From contig NZ_LGPC01000011.1 of assembly GCF_001431205.1 (NCBI RefSeq), positions 124,001 to 188,000 of the forward strand: a stretch of DNA of 64,000 bases. Reading direction: 5' to 3'. The position numbers and the translations under genes are program-made. The notes under the pieces were generated by a model. That model made no database searches. It was given only the letters and a program-made list of their open reading frames with translations, and had not been told where the DNA came from. This document shows, piece after piece, positions 1 through 48,440 of the stretch (positions are counted from its first letter, which is position 1; every line of letters starts with the position of its first letter). The DNA is from Staphylococcus sp. NAM3COL9. GTDB lineage: Bacteria > Bacillota > Bacilli > Staphylococcales > Staphylococcaceae.

Positions 1-578
1 TTAATAGCATTAATATCATCATCATTAATAATTCTTTTCGTCTTTCGATCATGTAGAAAATGTTTGCTATCCCAAGATGTGAATAACTGATTCATAACTT
101 TTGCAAATTCAGCAGCAATTTCGTAGCGCTCATTATGATTAGGGAGCGTTTCCATACTGTGATTTAAGGCTTCTAAATCTGTCATAGAGGTGACAAGATT
201 CCAACCTATACGTCCATGTGATAGATGATCTAGACTGAGTAATTGTCTAGATGCAGTAAAAGGGTTTGAGAACGTACTTGAAATTGTTGCAACAAGTCCA
301 ATGTGTGTTGTCACATGAGCAATAGCAGATAAACTGACAATTGGATCGAACCAAAATGCTGGCATATCAGTCGAAGATTTTGCAGGAAAAGATTGATTGT
401 CAGCGAAAAATACTGCGTCGAATAGTCCTTTTTCAGCAAGTTGCGCTAATTCCTGATAATAAGTAATTTCACCGATACGTGTCACACTAGAGTTAGGCAT
501 CAACCAAGCAGCTTGGTGGTGACCACAAGCATATAATAAAACGCCAATATTAAGTTGTTTTTGATTTTTATCAGACAT
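1..578 (-). CDS. Luciferase-like FMN-dependent monooxygenase, NtaA/SnaA/DszA type (partial, N-terminal 192 residues)
   Basis: The gene starts with ATG at 578, with GGAGG 8 bases upstream, and runs off the left edge, so only the N-terminal half is visible. The protein begins MSDKNQKQLNIGVLLYACGH and carries LFDAVFFAD and GRIGWNLVTS segments typical of the bacterial luciferase-like (LLM) superfamily, close to the nitrilotriacetate/dibenzothiophene-sulfone type. These enzymes use FMNH2 supplied by a separate reductase to oxidise small molecules, often cleaving C-N or C-S bonds. It lies 26 bases downstream of the short-chain dehydrogenase on the same strand and shares its TPP riboswitch, so a thiamine-related substrate is inferred. 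The exact substrate cannot be read from sequence. Family is quite sure, role is not. Confidence 0.85.
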   Translation of the reverse strand, partial: MSDKNQKQLNIGVLLYACGHHQAAWLMPNSSVTRIGEITYYQELAQLAEKGLFDAVFFADNQSFPAKSSTDMPAFWFDPIVSLSAIAHVTTHIGLVATISSTFSNPFTASRQLLSLDHLSHGRIGWNLVTSMTDLEALNHSMETLPNHNERYEIAAEFAKVMNQLFTSWDSKHFLHDRKTKRIINDDDINAI

Positions 579-604
579 AGAAAACACCTCCAATTTATAA
601 TTTT

Positions 605-1357
605 TTAATTCATCGTTAAGCCGCCATCAACAGTGAAATTTTGACCTGTTATACCGTTAGCTTGTTCAGATGCTAAGTATGCAACCATGTTTGCAATGTC
701 TTGTGGTGACGTCACACGCTTAAGAGGTGTTGTTTGTGCAATCATATCAAATACTTCAGTCGTCGTTGTAGCACTTGCGTCAGTCGTTTTTAACAAGCCT
801 CCTGACACGACATTGGCTCTAATACCAAATTGACCAAGCTCGGCAGCAATATTACGTGTAAAACCAATTAACCCAGCTTTTGCAGTTGTATATTCATGAT
901 AAGGTACAACGGGATTTTGATATAAATTTGTACCAATAGAAATAATATTACCTTGCTGTCTTTCTAAAAATTGAGGCATAACACTTTGTGTTACATTGAA
1001 GGCAGCCTTTAATGTACCATCTATTTGTCGTTGGTAATCAGCCCATGTTAAATCTTTAAATGCTTTTTGCTGTGTAGGATCAAATTTAAAACCTACTAAT
1101 GCATTGTTAACTACAACATCAATTTTACCGAAATATTGGATAGCCTGTTCAATTAAGCGTTCAATATCATTTCTATTTGTGACATCAGCTTGAATGGCAA
1201 TTGCAGAGTCTAATCCGATGTCAGAAACAAGATTTTCTGCTAACGATTTATTTTTGTAATAATTGATTATAATATTATACCCTTGTTGCGATAATGTTTT
1301 TGCAATCGTTGCACCTAAACCTCTACTACTACCAGTTACTAAAATAGTTTTATTCAT
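605..1357 (-). CDS. Short-chain dehydrogenase/reductase (FabG-like), 250 aa, TPP-riboswitch controlled
   Basis: A classical Rossmann-fold SDR. The NAD(P) motif TGSSRGLG is at residues 8-15, NNA at 84-86, and the active-site YTTAK has Tyr156 and Lys160. The position that aligns with the catalytic Ser of E. coli FabG appears to be Thr143 (IISIGT), an unusual substitution, although Ser140 is nearby. The start chosen is ATG 1357, because AGGAG lies 8 bases upstream; an in-frame ATG at 1405 lies within the terminator hairpin and is unlikely. It is the first gene after the TPP riboswitch and is followed 26 bases later by a flavin monooxygenase. Automatic annotation would call it 3-oxoacyl-ACP reductase, but the riboswitch and neighbour argue for a thiamine-linked redox step instead. 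The substrate is unknown. Confidence 0.88.
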   Translation of the reverse strand: MNKTILVTGSSRGLGATIAKTLSQQGYNIIINYYKNKSLAENLVSDIGLDSAIAIQADVTNRNDIERLIEQAIQYFGKIDVVVNNALVGFKFDPTQQKAFKDLTWADYQRQIDGTLKAAFNVTQSVMPQFLERQQGNIISIGTNLYQNPVVPYHEYTTAKAGLIGFTRNIAAELGQFGIRANVVSGGLLKTTDASATTTTEVFDMIAQTTPLKRVTSPQDIANMVAYLASEQANGITGQNFTVDGGLTMN

Positions 1358-1391
1358 AACTTTCACTCCTAAAATTTTAAAAATTAAAATT

Positions 1392-1430
1392 AAAAAAATA
1401 CACAACCCTCACTATAGAAAGTTGTGTATT
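1392..1430 (-). terminator. Intrinsic terminator, expression platform of the TPP riboswitch
   Basis: On the minus strand a 10-bp perfect stem (1421-1430 with 1397-1406, AATACACAAC/GTTGTGTATT) is followed by seven U residues (1398 down to 1392). It lies between the TPP aptamer and the SDR ribosome binding site, the expected place for transcription attenuation when TPP is bound. I did not work out the alternative antiterminator pairing. Confidence 0.8.
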
Positions 1431-1497
1431 AGAAATGATAGAATAGTGATATTGCAAAAAGGCAAGATTGCCCCTTGAATATATGATATAAAATCTT

Positions 1498-1583
1498 TCA
1501 CACTTTCCTCCGCTAGTTTCAGCTAGATCAGGTTCAAAGGGTTTGAGTTGTACTCATCTCAGTTCATAACACCCCTAGTGTAT
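1498..1583 (-). promoter_or_regulatory. TPP (thiamine pyrophosphate) riboswitch aptamer
   Basis: Read on the minus strand, the sequence contains the conserved THI-box blocks in order: ACTAGGGGTG, CTGAGATGAG, ACCCTTTGAACCTGATCTAG, then ACTAGCGGAGGAAAGTG. The closing P1 stem pairs ACACT (1577-1581) with AGTGT (1500-1504). Such aptamers bind thiamine pyrophosphate and lower expression of thiamine synthesis, salvage or transport genes. Here it precedes an SDR and a luciferase-like monooxygenase, with a terminator hairpin between aptamer and first gene. Confidence 0.96.
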
Positions 1584-1604
1584 GCGTTTGTTTAATTTAG
1601 TCTC

Positions 1605-1633
1605 AATGTATAGCTTTTAAATATAGATGTCAA
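1605..1633 (-). promoter_or_regulatory. SigA-type promoter of the TPP-riboswitch operon
   Basis: On the minus strand TTGACA (1628-1633) is followed after 17 bases by TACATT (1605-1610). Transcription would start near 1598, about 15 bases before the riboswitch aptamer. The -35 is a perfect consensus. Confidence 0.6.
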
Positions 1634-1844
1634 GAGACTTAAAATAATTCAAGGAATATCAAAGTTTTATCAAGGGCGTGAAAAGGGAAAATAGACAAAA
1701 GCGCGTAGTTCACAAGATAATTGAGGAGAAAAAATGTTTTTTTAAAATTGGTAAAGGATAACCTCTTTACAAACATCAGAAGAACTGGTATCATTATTTC
1801 TTGTAGAAAATAAATACTTATGAAATTAAAAGGAGAGAATATAA
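1634..1844. other. Divergent intergenic region between the TPP operon and rpsP
   Basis: It separates the minus-strand oxidoreductase operon from rpsP. Apart from the two divergent promoters (minus strand 1605-1633, plus strand 1766-1794) I see no gene. In most Firmicutes ffh lies directly upstream of rpsP; here that neighbour is displaced beyond the window or absent. Confidence 0.5.
1766..1794 (+). promoter_or_regulatory. SigA-type promoter for rpsP
   Basis: TTTACA (1766-1771) and TATCAT (1789-1794) are separated by 17 bases. They lie 50 bases before the rpsP start codon. This gives rpsP its own promoter, as would be needed once it is separated from an upstream ffh gene. Confidence 0.55.
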
Positions 1845-3571: not shown

Positions 3572-3672
3572 TAATATGCTAACATATCTTAAGTGTGCGA
3601 CACACGAAAATCACTATGGTCCGCTGCTATATTTTGTCCAGGCAAGAACATAGGTTGAAGGAGAGAAAAATA
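3572..3672 (+). promoter_or_regulatory. Probable L19 leader RNA upstream of rplS
   Basis: The 101 bases between trmD and rplS are longer than an ordinary operon spacer and include TGTGCGACACACG and GGTCCGCTGCTATATTTTGT blocks, with short complementary segments. An autoregulatory L19 leader is known at this position in low-GC Firmicutes. The assignment rests mainly on position; I did not derive a full secondary structure. Confidence 0.45.
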
Positions 3673-46205: not shown

Positions 46206-46239
46206 AGGGAAAGAACCTTCAGGGTCCTTTCCCTTTTTT
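46206..46239 (+). terminator. Intrinsic terminator after rpsO
   Basis: AGGGAAAG-ACC pairs with GGT-CTTTCCCT with one mismatch and a short loop, followed by six T residues. Confidence 0.88.
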
Positions 46240-46299
46240 ATAATCTAGAAAGCATATTATTTAAAAAGTAATATACTAATATAAAATTTTTCTGAGAAA

Positions 46300-46308
46300 T
46301 GATATGAT
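46300..46308 (+). promoter_or_regulatory. Candidate extended -10 promoter for pnp
   Basis: TG-A-TATGAT at 46300-46308 is an extended -10 element about 30 bases before the pnp start. No good -35 is present. Confidence 0.4.
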
Positions 46309-46340
46309 GTAACTAATAGATATATGAGAGGAGATTCGTA

Positions 46341-48440
46341 ATGTCTCAAGAGAAAAAAGTTTTTAAAACTGAATGGGCAAATAGATCATTAACGATTGAA
46401 ACAGGGCAACTTGCTAAACAAGCTAATGGTGCCGTGCTAGTTCGTTATGGCGATACAGTAGTATTATCTACTGCAGTAGCTTCAAAAGAACCACGCGATG
46501 TTGACTTTTTCCCATTAATGGTAAATTATGAAGAAAAAATGTATGCAGCAGGTAAAATTCCTGGTGGATTTAAAAAACGTGAGGGGCGTCCAAGCGACGA
46601 AGCAACATTAACTGCGCGCTTAATAGACAGACCAATTCGTCCACTTTTCCCTAAAGGATATAAGTATGATGTACAAATCATGAATACCGTATTAAGTGCT
46701 GATCCTGATTGTTCTCCAGAAATGGCAGCAATGATAGGTTCATCTATGGCACTTAGTGTCTCGGACATTCCATTCCAAGGGCCTATTGCTGGTGTGAACG
46801 TAGGCTATGTTGATGGCGAATACGTGATTAACCCAACTGTTGCACAGAAAGAAGTGTCGCGTCTTGATTTAGAAGTTGCTGGACACAAAGATGCTGTAAA
46901 CATGGTTGAAGCAGGCGCAAGTGAAATTACTGAAAGTGAAATGCTTGAGGGAATCTTCTTTGGTCATAATGAAATACAACGTTTAGTTAATTTCCAACAA
47001 GAAATCGTTGATCACATCCAACCAGTGAAAAAACCATTCACACCTGTTGAACAAGACGAAGCGCTTTCAGAAAAAGTGAAACAGCTTACTGAAGCCAATG
47101 GTTTGAAAGAAGCTGTATTAACATTTGATAAACAACAACGTGATATCAATCTTGACACATTAAAAGAAAAAGTCGTTGCAGGATTTATGGATGAAGAAGA
47201 TGTTAACAATGCTGCACTAATTAAAGATGTTCATGGCATTTTAAATAGTTTAGTTAAAGAAGAAGTAAGAAGATTAATTGCTGAAGAAAAAATCAGACCT
47301 GATGGTCGTAAATCAGATGAAATTCGTCCACTAGAATCAGAAGTTGGCGTATTACCAAGAGTACATGGTTCTGGCTTGTTTACGCGAGGTCAAACACAAG
47401 CACTATCTGTGTTAACATTAGGTTCAATGAGCGAATATCAAATTCTAGATGGTCTTGGTGAAGAACAACAAAAACGCTTCATGCATCATTACAATTTCCC
47501 TAACTATTCAGTTGGTGAAACAGGTCCAGTTCGTTCTCCAGGACGTCGTGAAATTGGTCACGGTGCTTTAGGTGAACGTGCATTAAGTCATGTTATTCCA
47601 GATACTAAAGATTTTCCTTATACTGTAAGAATTGTGAGTGAAGTATTAGAATCAAATGGTTCTTCTTCACAAGCGTCAATTTGTGGTTCTACGTTAGCCT
47701 TAATGGATGCAGGTGTTCCTATTAAGGCTCCAGTAGCCGGCATTGCTATGGGGTTAGTAACACGTGATGATAGTTATACTATTTTAACGGATATTCAAGG
47801 TATGGAAGATGCTTTAGGTGACATGGACTTTAAAGTAGCGGGTACGCCTGAAGGTATCACTGCAATACAAATGGATATTAAAATTGATGGTCTAACAAAA
47901 GAGATTATTAGAGAAGCTTTAGATCAAGCACGAGAAGGTCGTTTAGCTATTTTAGATCATATGCTACAAACAATTGATACAACACGTGGTGAGTTAAGCG
48001 CGTTTGCACCTAAAGTTGTTACGATGACAATCAAACCTGAAAAAATTAGAGATGTTATTGGACCTGGTGGTAAGAAAATCAATGAAATCATTGATCAAAC
48101 AGGTGTGAAACTTGATATTGAACAAGATGGTACAATCTTTATAGGCGCTGTTGATAAAGATGCAATCGCGGAAGCGCGTAGTATCATAGAAGACATTACA
48201 CGTGAAGCTGAAGTTGGCCAAGTATATGAAGGCAAAGTAAAACGTATTGAAAAATATGGTGCATTTGTTGAATTATTCCCTGGTAAAGATGCTTTAGTTC
48301 ATATATCACAAATTGCAAATGAACGTATTGATAAAGTAGAAGATGTATTGAAAATTGGAGATACATTTAAAATAAAAGTAACAGAAATTGATAAACAAGG
48401 TCGCGTGAATGCGTCTCATAAAGTACTTTCATCAAATTAA
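46341..48440 (+). CDS. pnp: Polyribonucleotide nucleotidyltransferase (PNPase)
   Basis: PNPase (699 aa) degrades RNA from the 3' end using phosphate and is a core partner in RNA decay. Two RNase PH domains cover about residues 1-220 and 310-540 ([19 protein letters not shown]), followed by KH ([19 protein letters not shown]) and S1 domains ([20 protein letters not shown]). GAGGAG lies upstream of the ATG. The 3' region holds a complex terminator. Confidence 0.98.

Follow-up and report, generated by a model that had tools for sequence, protein, structure and literature searches.

At the left end of a 64,000-nucleotide stretch of DNA from Staphylococcus sp. NAM3COL9 (contig NZ_LGPC01000011.1, here C11; C11:124001-188000, the whole of which is called the window), a thiamine pyrophosphate (TPP) riboswitch is followed by a gene encoding a short-chain dehydrogenase/reductase (SDR) and a gene encoding a luciferase-like monooxygenase (LLM). 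The first-pass annotation of this DNA had claimed that an SDR and an LLM form an operon under a TPP riboswitch, and this is borne out by the full-length aptamer, the terminator, a promoter-like site and the recognition of both protein families by model (Table 1). The source genome is near Staphylococcus equorum, with an LLM identity of 94%.

The riboswitch leader and its two genes

Table 1. Features located in the window (window coordinates).
Feature	Position	Strand	Evidence
Promoter-like site TTGACA-17-TACATT	1605-1633	-	sigma-70-like consensus scan, 10/12 matches
TPP riboswitch aptamer	1488-1586	-	RF00059, 75.6 bits; gathering score 54.3; full-length model, 1-105 of 105
Terminator-like hairpin, 14 pairs and T-run	1397-1430	-	1 found against 0.2 +/- 0.4 expected in shuffles
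SDR oxidoreductase, 250 aa	605-1357	-	ATG at 1357, AGGAG upstream; NF006393/PRK08642
LLM, monooxygenase dependent on flavin mononucleotide (FMN), first 192 codons	1-578	-	ATG at 578, GGAGG upstream; TIGR03860
L19 ribosomal protein leader	3613-3654	+	RF00556, 41 bits
Match to Listeria small RNA rliD	46206-46521	-	RF01494, 66.8 bits; cut-off 50

The SDR and LLM genes are separated by 26 nt, and the LLM gene, which is cut by the window edge at base 1, occupies C11:123265-124578 when followed along the contig. A mechanical list of open reading frames (ORFs) gives longer TTG starts for both genes, at 1405 for the SDR and at 593 for the LLM. Beyond the end of the LLM lies a convergent gene on the other strand that was recognised as ffh. 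Because this ffh-like gene sits just past the LLM, the operon consists of two genes with the LLM last, and the further operon genes that the first-pass annotation had proposed to look for on the left are absent.

Terminator-like hairpins with a T-run follow the aptamer in 27 of 28 related Bacillota leaders of this gene pair at a threshold of -6 kcal/mol, the remaining one (L026) reaching -5.8, and many of these terminators have a common core like ACGCAACTTTCC..GGAAGGTTGCGT. In the window, the 5' arm of the terminator contains ACTTTC, which, as read from the sequence, is complementary to GAAAGT in the 3' closing strand of the aptamer; this pairing could form the usual antiterminator. By its layout the leader would be a terminating OFF switch in which TPP should stop transcription, so that the two genes would be on at low TPP, which favours supply over breakdown. 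Regulation of the SDR-LLM operon by TPP is strongly predicted. Sigma-70-like matches are frequent in the scanned stretch (9 against 3.0 +/- 1.9 expected in shuffles), and the promoter-like site is a candidate by consensus match alone, which is no evidence of function.

The same genome contains three other TPP sites, located before tenA-thiD-thiM-thiE, tenI-thiO-thiS-thiG-thiF and ykoEDC (gene names by reading). Among these thi genes, only tenI, thiO, thiG and thiF were tested against models; tenI and thiF score below the curated cut-offs and thiO slightly below.

A comparison of the SDR with NCBIfam gave 385.6 bits for NF006393/PRK08642 (cut-off 292), the sole model passed among the best 25 shown, and the protein carries the TGxxxGxG and YxxxK motifs. 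The label '3-oxoacyl-ACP reductase' that it bears is annotation only. The SDR fails the FabG equivalog models (TIGR01830, 173 bits against a cut-off of 297.75), and a separate nearby gene was read as the housekeeping fabG of this genome. With the model for SDR-type pyridoxal 4-dehydrogenase, an enzyme that, judging from the model's name, handles a heteroaromatic aldehyde, the score is 162 bits, below the cut-off of 325; we count this likeness in favour of the aldehyde chemistry proposed below. The LLM scores 469.4 bits with TIGR03860 (NtaA/DmoA; cut-off 279.7), and its nearest solved relative is YtnJ/MoxC (E about 1e-82). YtnJ, like CmoJ, is a thioether-cleaving enzyme that breaks the C-S bond in substrates of the S-alkyl cysteine kind. 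By this score it is a monooxygenase of the FMN-dependent NtaA/DmoA family, with a predicted reaction that uses reduced FMN and O2.

Conservation of the riboswitch and the gene pair

The link between the TPP riboswitch and the SDR-LLM pair is old and specific, and it is conserved across three phyla. A genome scan, as the first-pass annotation had recommended, gave 29 loci, in 28 of which a pattern search found the order TPP motif, SDR, LLM. At the 29th (L037, from a metagenome bin), a TPP core lies about 155 nt before the LLM, so that an SDR would not fit between them, and the contig breaks off within the LLM. The Rfam model confirmed the riboswitch in all 22 of these 29 loci that were submitted to it. 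Of 40 further loci, 37 likewise have an Rfam TPP site beside the pair, the other three pairs being inside a TPP-headed thiazole operon; these 40 comprise 38 of the 48 LLM loci from a genome search together with L102 and L108, and some belong to the same strains as loci named here. Plasmid copies are likewise preceded by an Rfam TPP site (5/5) and occur in Bacillota, Pseudomonadota and Actinomycetota, their hosts being Pseudochrobactrum (2 of 4 records checked), Rhodococcus sp. DMU1, Mesobacillus and Exiguobacterium, in which the LLM match is in two pieces.

A predominance of homologues without TPP riboswitches, which by the first-pass annotation would have spoken against its reading, was not found. 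Orthologues have the riboswitch, and it is absent from 13 more distant LLM loci; the first eight of these LLMs are 35-40% identical to that of the window, and no SDR match at 1e-20 was found within the 9 kb searched around them. In a quick tree that carries a long-branch warning, 51 TPP-linked LLMs form one clade against eight without TPP, with a Shimodaira-Hasegawa-like approximate likelihood-ratio (SH-aLRT) support of 100. Two genomes of different families (G151 and G277) have almost identical LLMs, which suggests transfer. Among the phage records listed (5 of 7) there were only distant relatives, with 30-36% identity.

The pair also occurs duplicated, broken or incomplete. G019 contains two differing copies (L304 and L305), of which one has a broken SDR and the other adjoins a remnant of ThiF, and in G031 (L314) a TPP site lies close to what may be a short remnant of an LLM (20 aa match). 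These remnants are relics of duplicated or transferred modules. In G143 the LLM is lost and the SDR kept. G079 (L087) and G108 (L082) each have an orphan TPP aptamer that no gene follows, flanked by the two genes that border the pair in G054 (L280); one of these flanking genes is also found in L067 and L275.

Probable thiamine-fragment supply and competing explanations

Neighbours of the pair are mostly unconserved and are not thiamine genes, most loci having no linked thiamine gene, and a Pfam scan of 10 neighbour genes showed no thiamine link; on both grounds, the neighbours of database loci were dropped as a guide to function. Operon linkage to thiazole genes was nevertheless found in three separate arrangements in 7 genomes. 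In the Bacillota genus g70 (G415, G439 and G446; L287-L289), a single operon runs TPP site, TenI/ThiE-like gene, thiO, thiS, thiG, thiF, SDR, LLM; the only TPP site is at its head, and the pair has none of its own. The LLM of G415 is interrupted; in G446, thiS is missing from the ORF list and it was the family search that identified thiG. In another Bacillota genus, g14 (G040, G065 and G067; L102-L104), the TPP-SDR-LLM unit is divergent from TenI-ThiS-ThiG-ThiF, with TPP sites on both sides in 3/3. The third arrangement, in G240 (L291), has TPP, SDR, LLM, ThiM, ThiD, ThiE and ThiW in a row, in a genome with no ThiG match at 1e-50. ThiW is a 'thiamine-precursor transporter' by Pfam and presumably carries thiazole. 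These linked genes likely point to thiamine-fragment supply, mainly in the thiazole branch.

Two TPP-controlled genes for the thiamine transporter Thia_YuaJ (L316 and L324) are each followed by a same-strand M24 peptidase gene, called by Pfam for L316 and by likeness only for L324, which is from another genome.

We consider it likely that the pair takes part in thiamine-fragment supply and, with moderate confidence, that it belongs to the thiazole rather than the pyrimidine branch. Our more specific proposal is a tentative one, namely that the pair is a TPP-repressed two-gene supply module for the thiamine pathway, most likely converting a thiazole aldehyde to 5-(2-hydroxyethyl)-4-methylthiazole (HET), a chemistry that we infer. 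At low TPP, the terminator would not form and both the SDR and the LLM would be made. Members of the LLM family are known for oxidative C-S or C-N cleavage. The LLM, with reduced FMN and O2, would act on a thiamine fragment that is damaged or carries a substituent, hydroxylating its CH2-X carbon (X = S or N); the hydroxylated product would collapse to an aldehyde through such a cleavage. The SDR, with NAD(P)H, would then reduce the aldehyde to an alcohol accepted by the salvage kinases. The alcohols used by thiamine salvage are HET and 4-amino-5-hydroxymethyl-2-methylpyrimidine (HMP); the product would most probably be HET for ThiM and, with lower probability, HMP for ThiD.

The first-pass annotation had left a choice between oxidative salvage and breakdown of a thiamine-like compound. 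Salvage, with thiazole among its options, fits the linkages described above, whereas breakdown fares poorly against a leader that reads as OFF. Flavin monooxygenases do often open catabolic routes, but a TPP-off switch would be expected to silence catabolism when thiamine is plentiful, and the linked genes, where present, serve synthesis and salvage. It is accordingly decidedly improbable that the pair serves to break down or detoxify thiamine or an antivitamin.

The SDR has relatives that stand beside other genes. When the SDRs of Pseudochrobactrum and Rhodococcus were searched against plasmids, 16 and 19 records came up, respectively. The order thiM-thiE-thiD-SDR occurs in Neorhizobium, Gemmobacter and two of the Rhizobium plasmids, with a TPP site before thiM in 4/4 loci checked (model R1, E 1e-10 to 2e-8). 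LuxE, LuxC and SDR follow a TPP site in Pantoea sp. SS70 and P. dispersa. In Azospirillum and Priestia, the order is TPP, LuxE, LuxC, a three-gene ATP-binding cassette (ABC) transporter with an NMT1/THI5-like binding protein, and SDR, and in Lactiplantibacillus it is TPP, Xan_ur permease, LuxE, LuxC, SDR. Altogether, TPP sites accompany LuxE-LuxC...SDR in the 5/5 loci checked (L351, L354, L355, L356 and L357) of 27 LuxC records (R1, E 6e-15 to 2.5e-5, the Azospirillum match being partial). LuxE was tested with Pfam in 4/5 of these loci and LuxC in one, the rest being assigned by annotation and similarity. R1 is our own TPP model, which includes the Pseudochrobactrum and Rhodococcus sites and matches there by construction, Rfam being the independent test; the TPP sites of the thiM-thiE-thiD and LuxE-LuxC loci come from R1 alone. 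In Staphylococcus G108, which is without the pair, a TPP site is followed by a LuxE gene, and the locus (L098) ends inside the next gene.

LuxE and LuxC reduce a carboxylate to an aldehyde. An SDR acting after them would most simply turn the aldehyde into an alcohol, and the same step would fit thiM-thiE-thiD-SDR. Because other TPP operons pair a relative of the SDR with LuxE-LuxC or thiM-thiE-thiD, the SDR step would be the constant one and the LLM an interchangeable front end. A modular TPP-repressed 'aldehyde route' in three phyla, partly on plasmids, with a common SDR last step and either LLM or ATP-dependent LuxE-LuxC front ends, is a possibility that we put forward with still more caution than the two-gene module itself.

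A pyrimidine counterpart of the same chemistry, in which the LLM would release 4-amino-5-formyl-2-methylpyrimidine from a CH2-N or CH2-S adduct of the pyrimidine and the SDR would reduce this aldehyde to HMP for ThiD, appears doubtful. It can draw on the presence of ThiD in the SDR-LLM-thiM-thiD-thiE-thiW and thiM-thiE-thiD-SDR operons, on the NMT1/THI5-like binding proteins (two loci) or Xan_ur permease (one locus) of the LuxE-LuxC-SDR operons, and on ABC transporters with weak NMT1 matches that adjoin some of the remoter LLMs. However, the direct operon links of the LLM are to thiazole genes and thiW, and no association with ThiC was found in Staphylococcus, where the phylogenetic contrasts average 2.3 in the same and 0.7 in the opposite direction. 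Among Staphylococcus genomes with intact ThiG and no DXS, the pair occurs in 27/28 with ThiC and in 18/22 without; HMP supply for ThiC-lacking genomes was rejected as a role for lack of this association. For the LLM type, the thiazole is favoured because its operon partners are thiazole genes, a pyrimidine substrate being less likely.

The thiazole assignment of the pair was further examined by co-occurrence. Among 150 Staphylococcales genomes, an LLM orthologue (identity 59% or more; matches at or below 44%, including the 40% match of G071, were not counted) is present in 64, ThiG in 101, DXS in 79 and ThiC in 46. ThiG is present in 61 of the 64 pair holders. In Staphylococcus without DXS, the pair occurs in 45/50 genomes with intact ThiG versus 1/11 without ThiG. 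On an Smc tree of 70 genomes with seven independent ThiG contrasts, the pair changes in the same direction in three to five and never in the opposite one. Both the pair and the thiazole genes are damaged in G127, where ThiG is in two broken pieces, and in G145, where the LLM is cut by an insertion, ThiO is shortened and there is no real ThiG; this joint damage was counted in favour of a thiazole role. G145 was scored as pair-negative, and G127 as ThiG-positive in the DXS comparison (n = 51) and ThiG-negative in the tree contrasts and the 45/50 count. The pair is also found without a ThiG match in G240, G151, G277, G028, G031 and G147.

ThiG needs 1-deoxyxylulose 5-phosphate (DXP), and DXS is the textbook source of DXP. 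In genus g1, the pair occurs in 45/51 genomes with ThiG and no DXS against 3/21 with both (Fisher p = 3e-9, descent not corrected), which would agree with provision of DXP, or of a substitute for it, to ThiG by the pair in DXS-less mevalonate staphylococci. These staphylococci form one clade according to PMC5040788, a point that also favours this role; by word count, the main text of that article does not contain the word 'thiamin'. The association loses much of its force on our tree, where DXS was lost once, a single event that matches the published single mevalonate clade (PMC5040788). Moreover, 16 of 50 genomes of the whole order with DXS and ThiG also hold the pair, DXP would be useless in G240, G151 and G277, which have the pair without a ThiG match, and no obvious LLM chemistry yields DXP. 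A xylulokinase gene just upstream of the TPP-controlled thiazole operon, present in 28/51 genomes with ThiG and no DXS and in 0/21 with DXS (stretches examined), is a competing candidate. DXP supply by the pair is quite improbable, and as a general role it was demoted after the single DXS loss and the thiM/thiW pair operon of the ThiG-less G240 had been found.

The absence of DXS is an observation in its own right. Fifty-one of the 150 Staphylococcales genomes, all staphylococci and including that of the window and one with a broken ThiG, contain ThiG and no DXS match, and the source of DXP for thiazole synthesis in these bacteria is a real gap. The xylulokinase beside the thiazole operon, which in the source genome lies at L007:8162-9670 on the reverse strand (TIGR01312, 582 bits), could convert deoxyxylulose to DXP. 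XylB of E. coli reportedly catalyses this phosphorylation.

Enzymes of the NtaA type oxidise the carbon beside nitrogen in N-CH2-COOH groups, and the pair might on that basis replace or back up ThiO in making dehydroglycine for ThiG. The thiazole operon facing the pair in G040, G065 and G067 lacks thiO, with no ThiO match at 1e-40, and in G110 and G134, too, the pair and ThiG occur with no match to ThiO. In the order, however, most genomes with the pair, that of the window included, hold ThiO, the g70 operons combine thiO with the pair, and the pair of G240 stands in a genome with no ThiG match; ThiO replacement is extremely improbable.

Several findings weigh against the proposal of a thiazole supply module and its SDR-based extension. 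A flavin reductase is not among the genes seen in the operon. One of the 13 more distant LLMs, from Streptomyces nigrescens, has no TPP riboswitch and shares 51% identity with the TPP-linked LLM of Pseudochrobactrum; the border between TPP-linked and other LLMs is therefore not set by identity alone. The independent contrasts in Staphylococcus reach at best p = 0.0625, and five Staphylococcus genomes keep ThiG without the LLM and DXS. In the class sample, ThiG is present in 8/11 pair holders outside Staphylococcales versus 229/328 genomes overall, and this lack of class-wide enrichment ruled out universal ThiG dependence. At two Caballeronia loci, the SDR is accompanied neither by thi genes nor by a TPP site. 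The variant SDRs are 42-50% identical to that of the window, against 37-38% for its own FabG; with NF006393, the SDRs of the LLM and thiM-thiE-thiD types and one Caballeronia SDR score 382-427 bits and those of the LuxE-LuxC type 276-299 bits, two of the five latter falling below the cut-off. Because of these identities and scores, a substrate shared by the SDR variants is not secure. The transporters of the LuxE-LuxC variants, NMT1/THI5-like or nucleobase-type, hint at pyrimidine rather than thiazole.

Two further RNA matches lie elsewhere in the window (Table 1). The L19 leader precedes a gene read as rplS, and the rliD match, to a Listeria RNA, is here in a Staphylococcus.

Significance and comparison with known systems

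Many habitats offer little thiamine and few of its fragments, and these compounds are easily lost to oxidation and to thiaminases. If the proposal is correct, a widespread riboswitch-controlled pair for fragment recovery would be an unrecognised step in a textbook vitamin pathway. It would show which debris bacteria can use and would give functions to two families whose present labels are '3-oxoacyl-ACP reductase' and 'LLM class flavin-dependent oxidoreductase'. The aldehyde route, if it exists, would rebuild oxidised or adducted thiamine debris into the vitamin. The data also expose an easily testable question, the origin of DXP in mevalonate staphylococci with ThiG and without DXS.

Rodionov and colleagues reportedly listed in 2002 a THI-regulated gene, 'oarX', resembling 3-oxoacyl-ACP reductases; oarX may be the SDR of the window. 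Among the matches listed for 'oarX' in the open-licence part of PubMed Central, none looked bacterial, and those listed for the pair, the SDR or LuxE/LuxC gave no link with TPP riboswitches, although absence there proves little. A survey of 255 genomes divides the TPP targets into 20 orthologues for biosynthesis, 19 for transporters and a miscellaneous remainder (PMC3766115); the pair may be among them.

The window leader resembles those of known TPP riboswitch (THI element, RF00059) regulons in its full-length aptamer above the gathering score, its terminator and its OFF layout, and differs from them in controlling two oxidoreductases. The LLM belongs to the YtnJ/MoxC and NtaA/DmoA group by its TIGR03860 score, but it falls in a TPP-linked clade of its own with an SDR partner, the riboswitch being confined to this side of the comparison with the 13 remoter loci. 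With SDR-type pyridoxal 4-dehydrogenase and FabG, the SDR has its motifs in common, and it scores below both curated cut-offs. Fatty acid reductase, LuxC-LuxE, is related to the system through the TPP-controlled LuxE-LuxC operons that hold a relative of the window SDR; it lies outside the window operon, and the annotation of the five loci examined shows no luciferase gene. A functional parallel would be the known salvage of thiamine fragments by TenA, ThiM, ThiD and ThiW, as the pair shares an operon with ThiM, ThiD, ThiE and ThiW in G240. TenA hydrolysis needs neither a flavoenzyme and O2 step nor an aldehyde reductase, whereas the pair would add both of these steps to such salvage.

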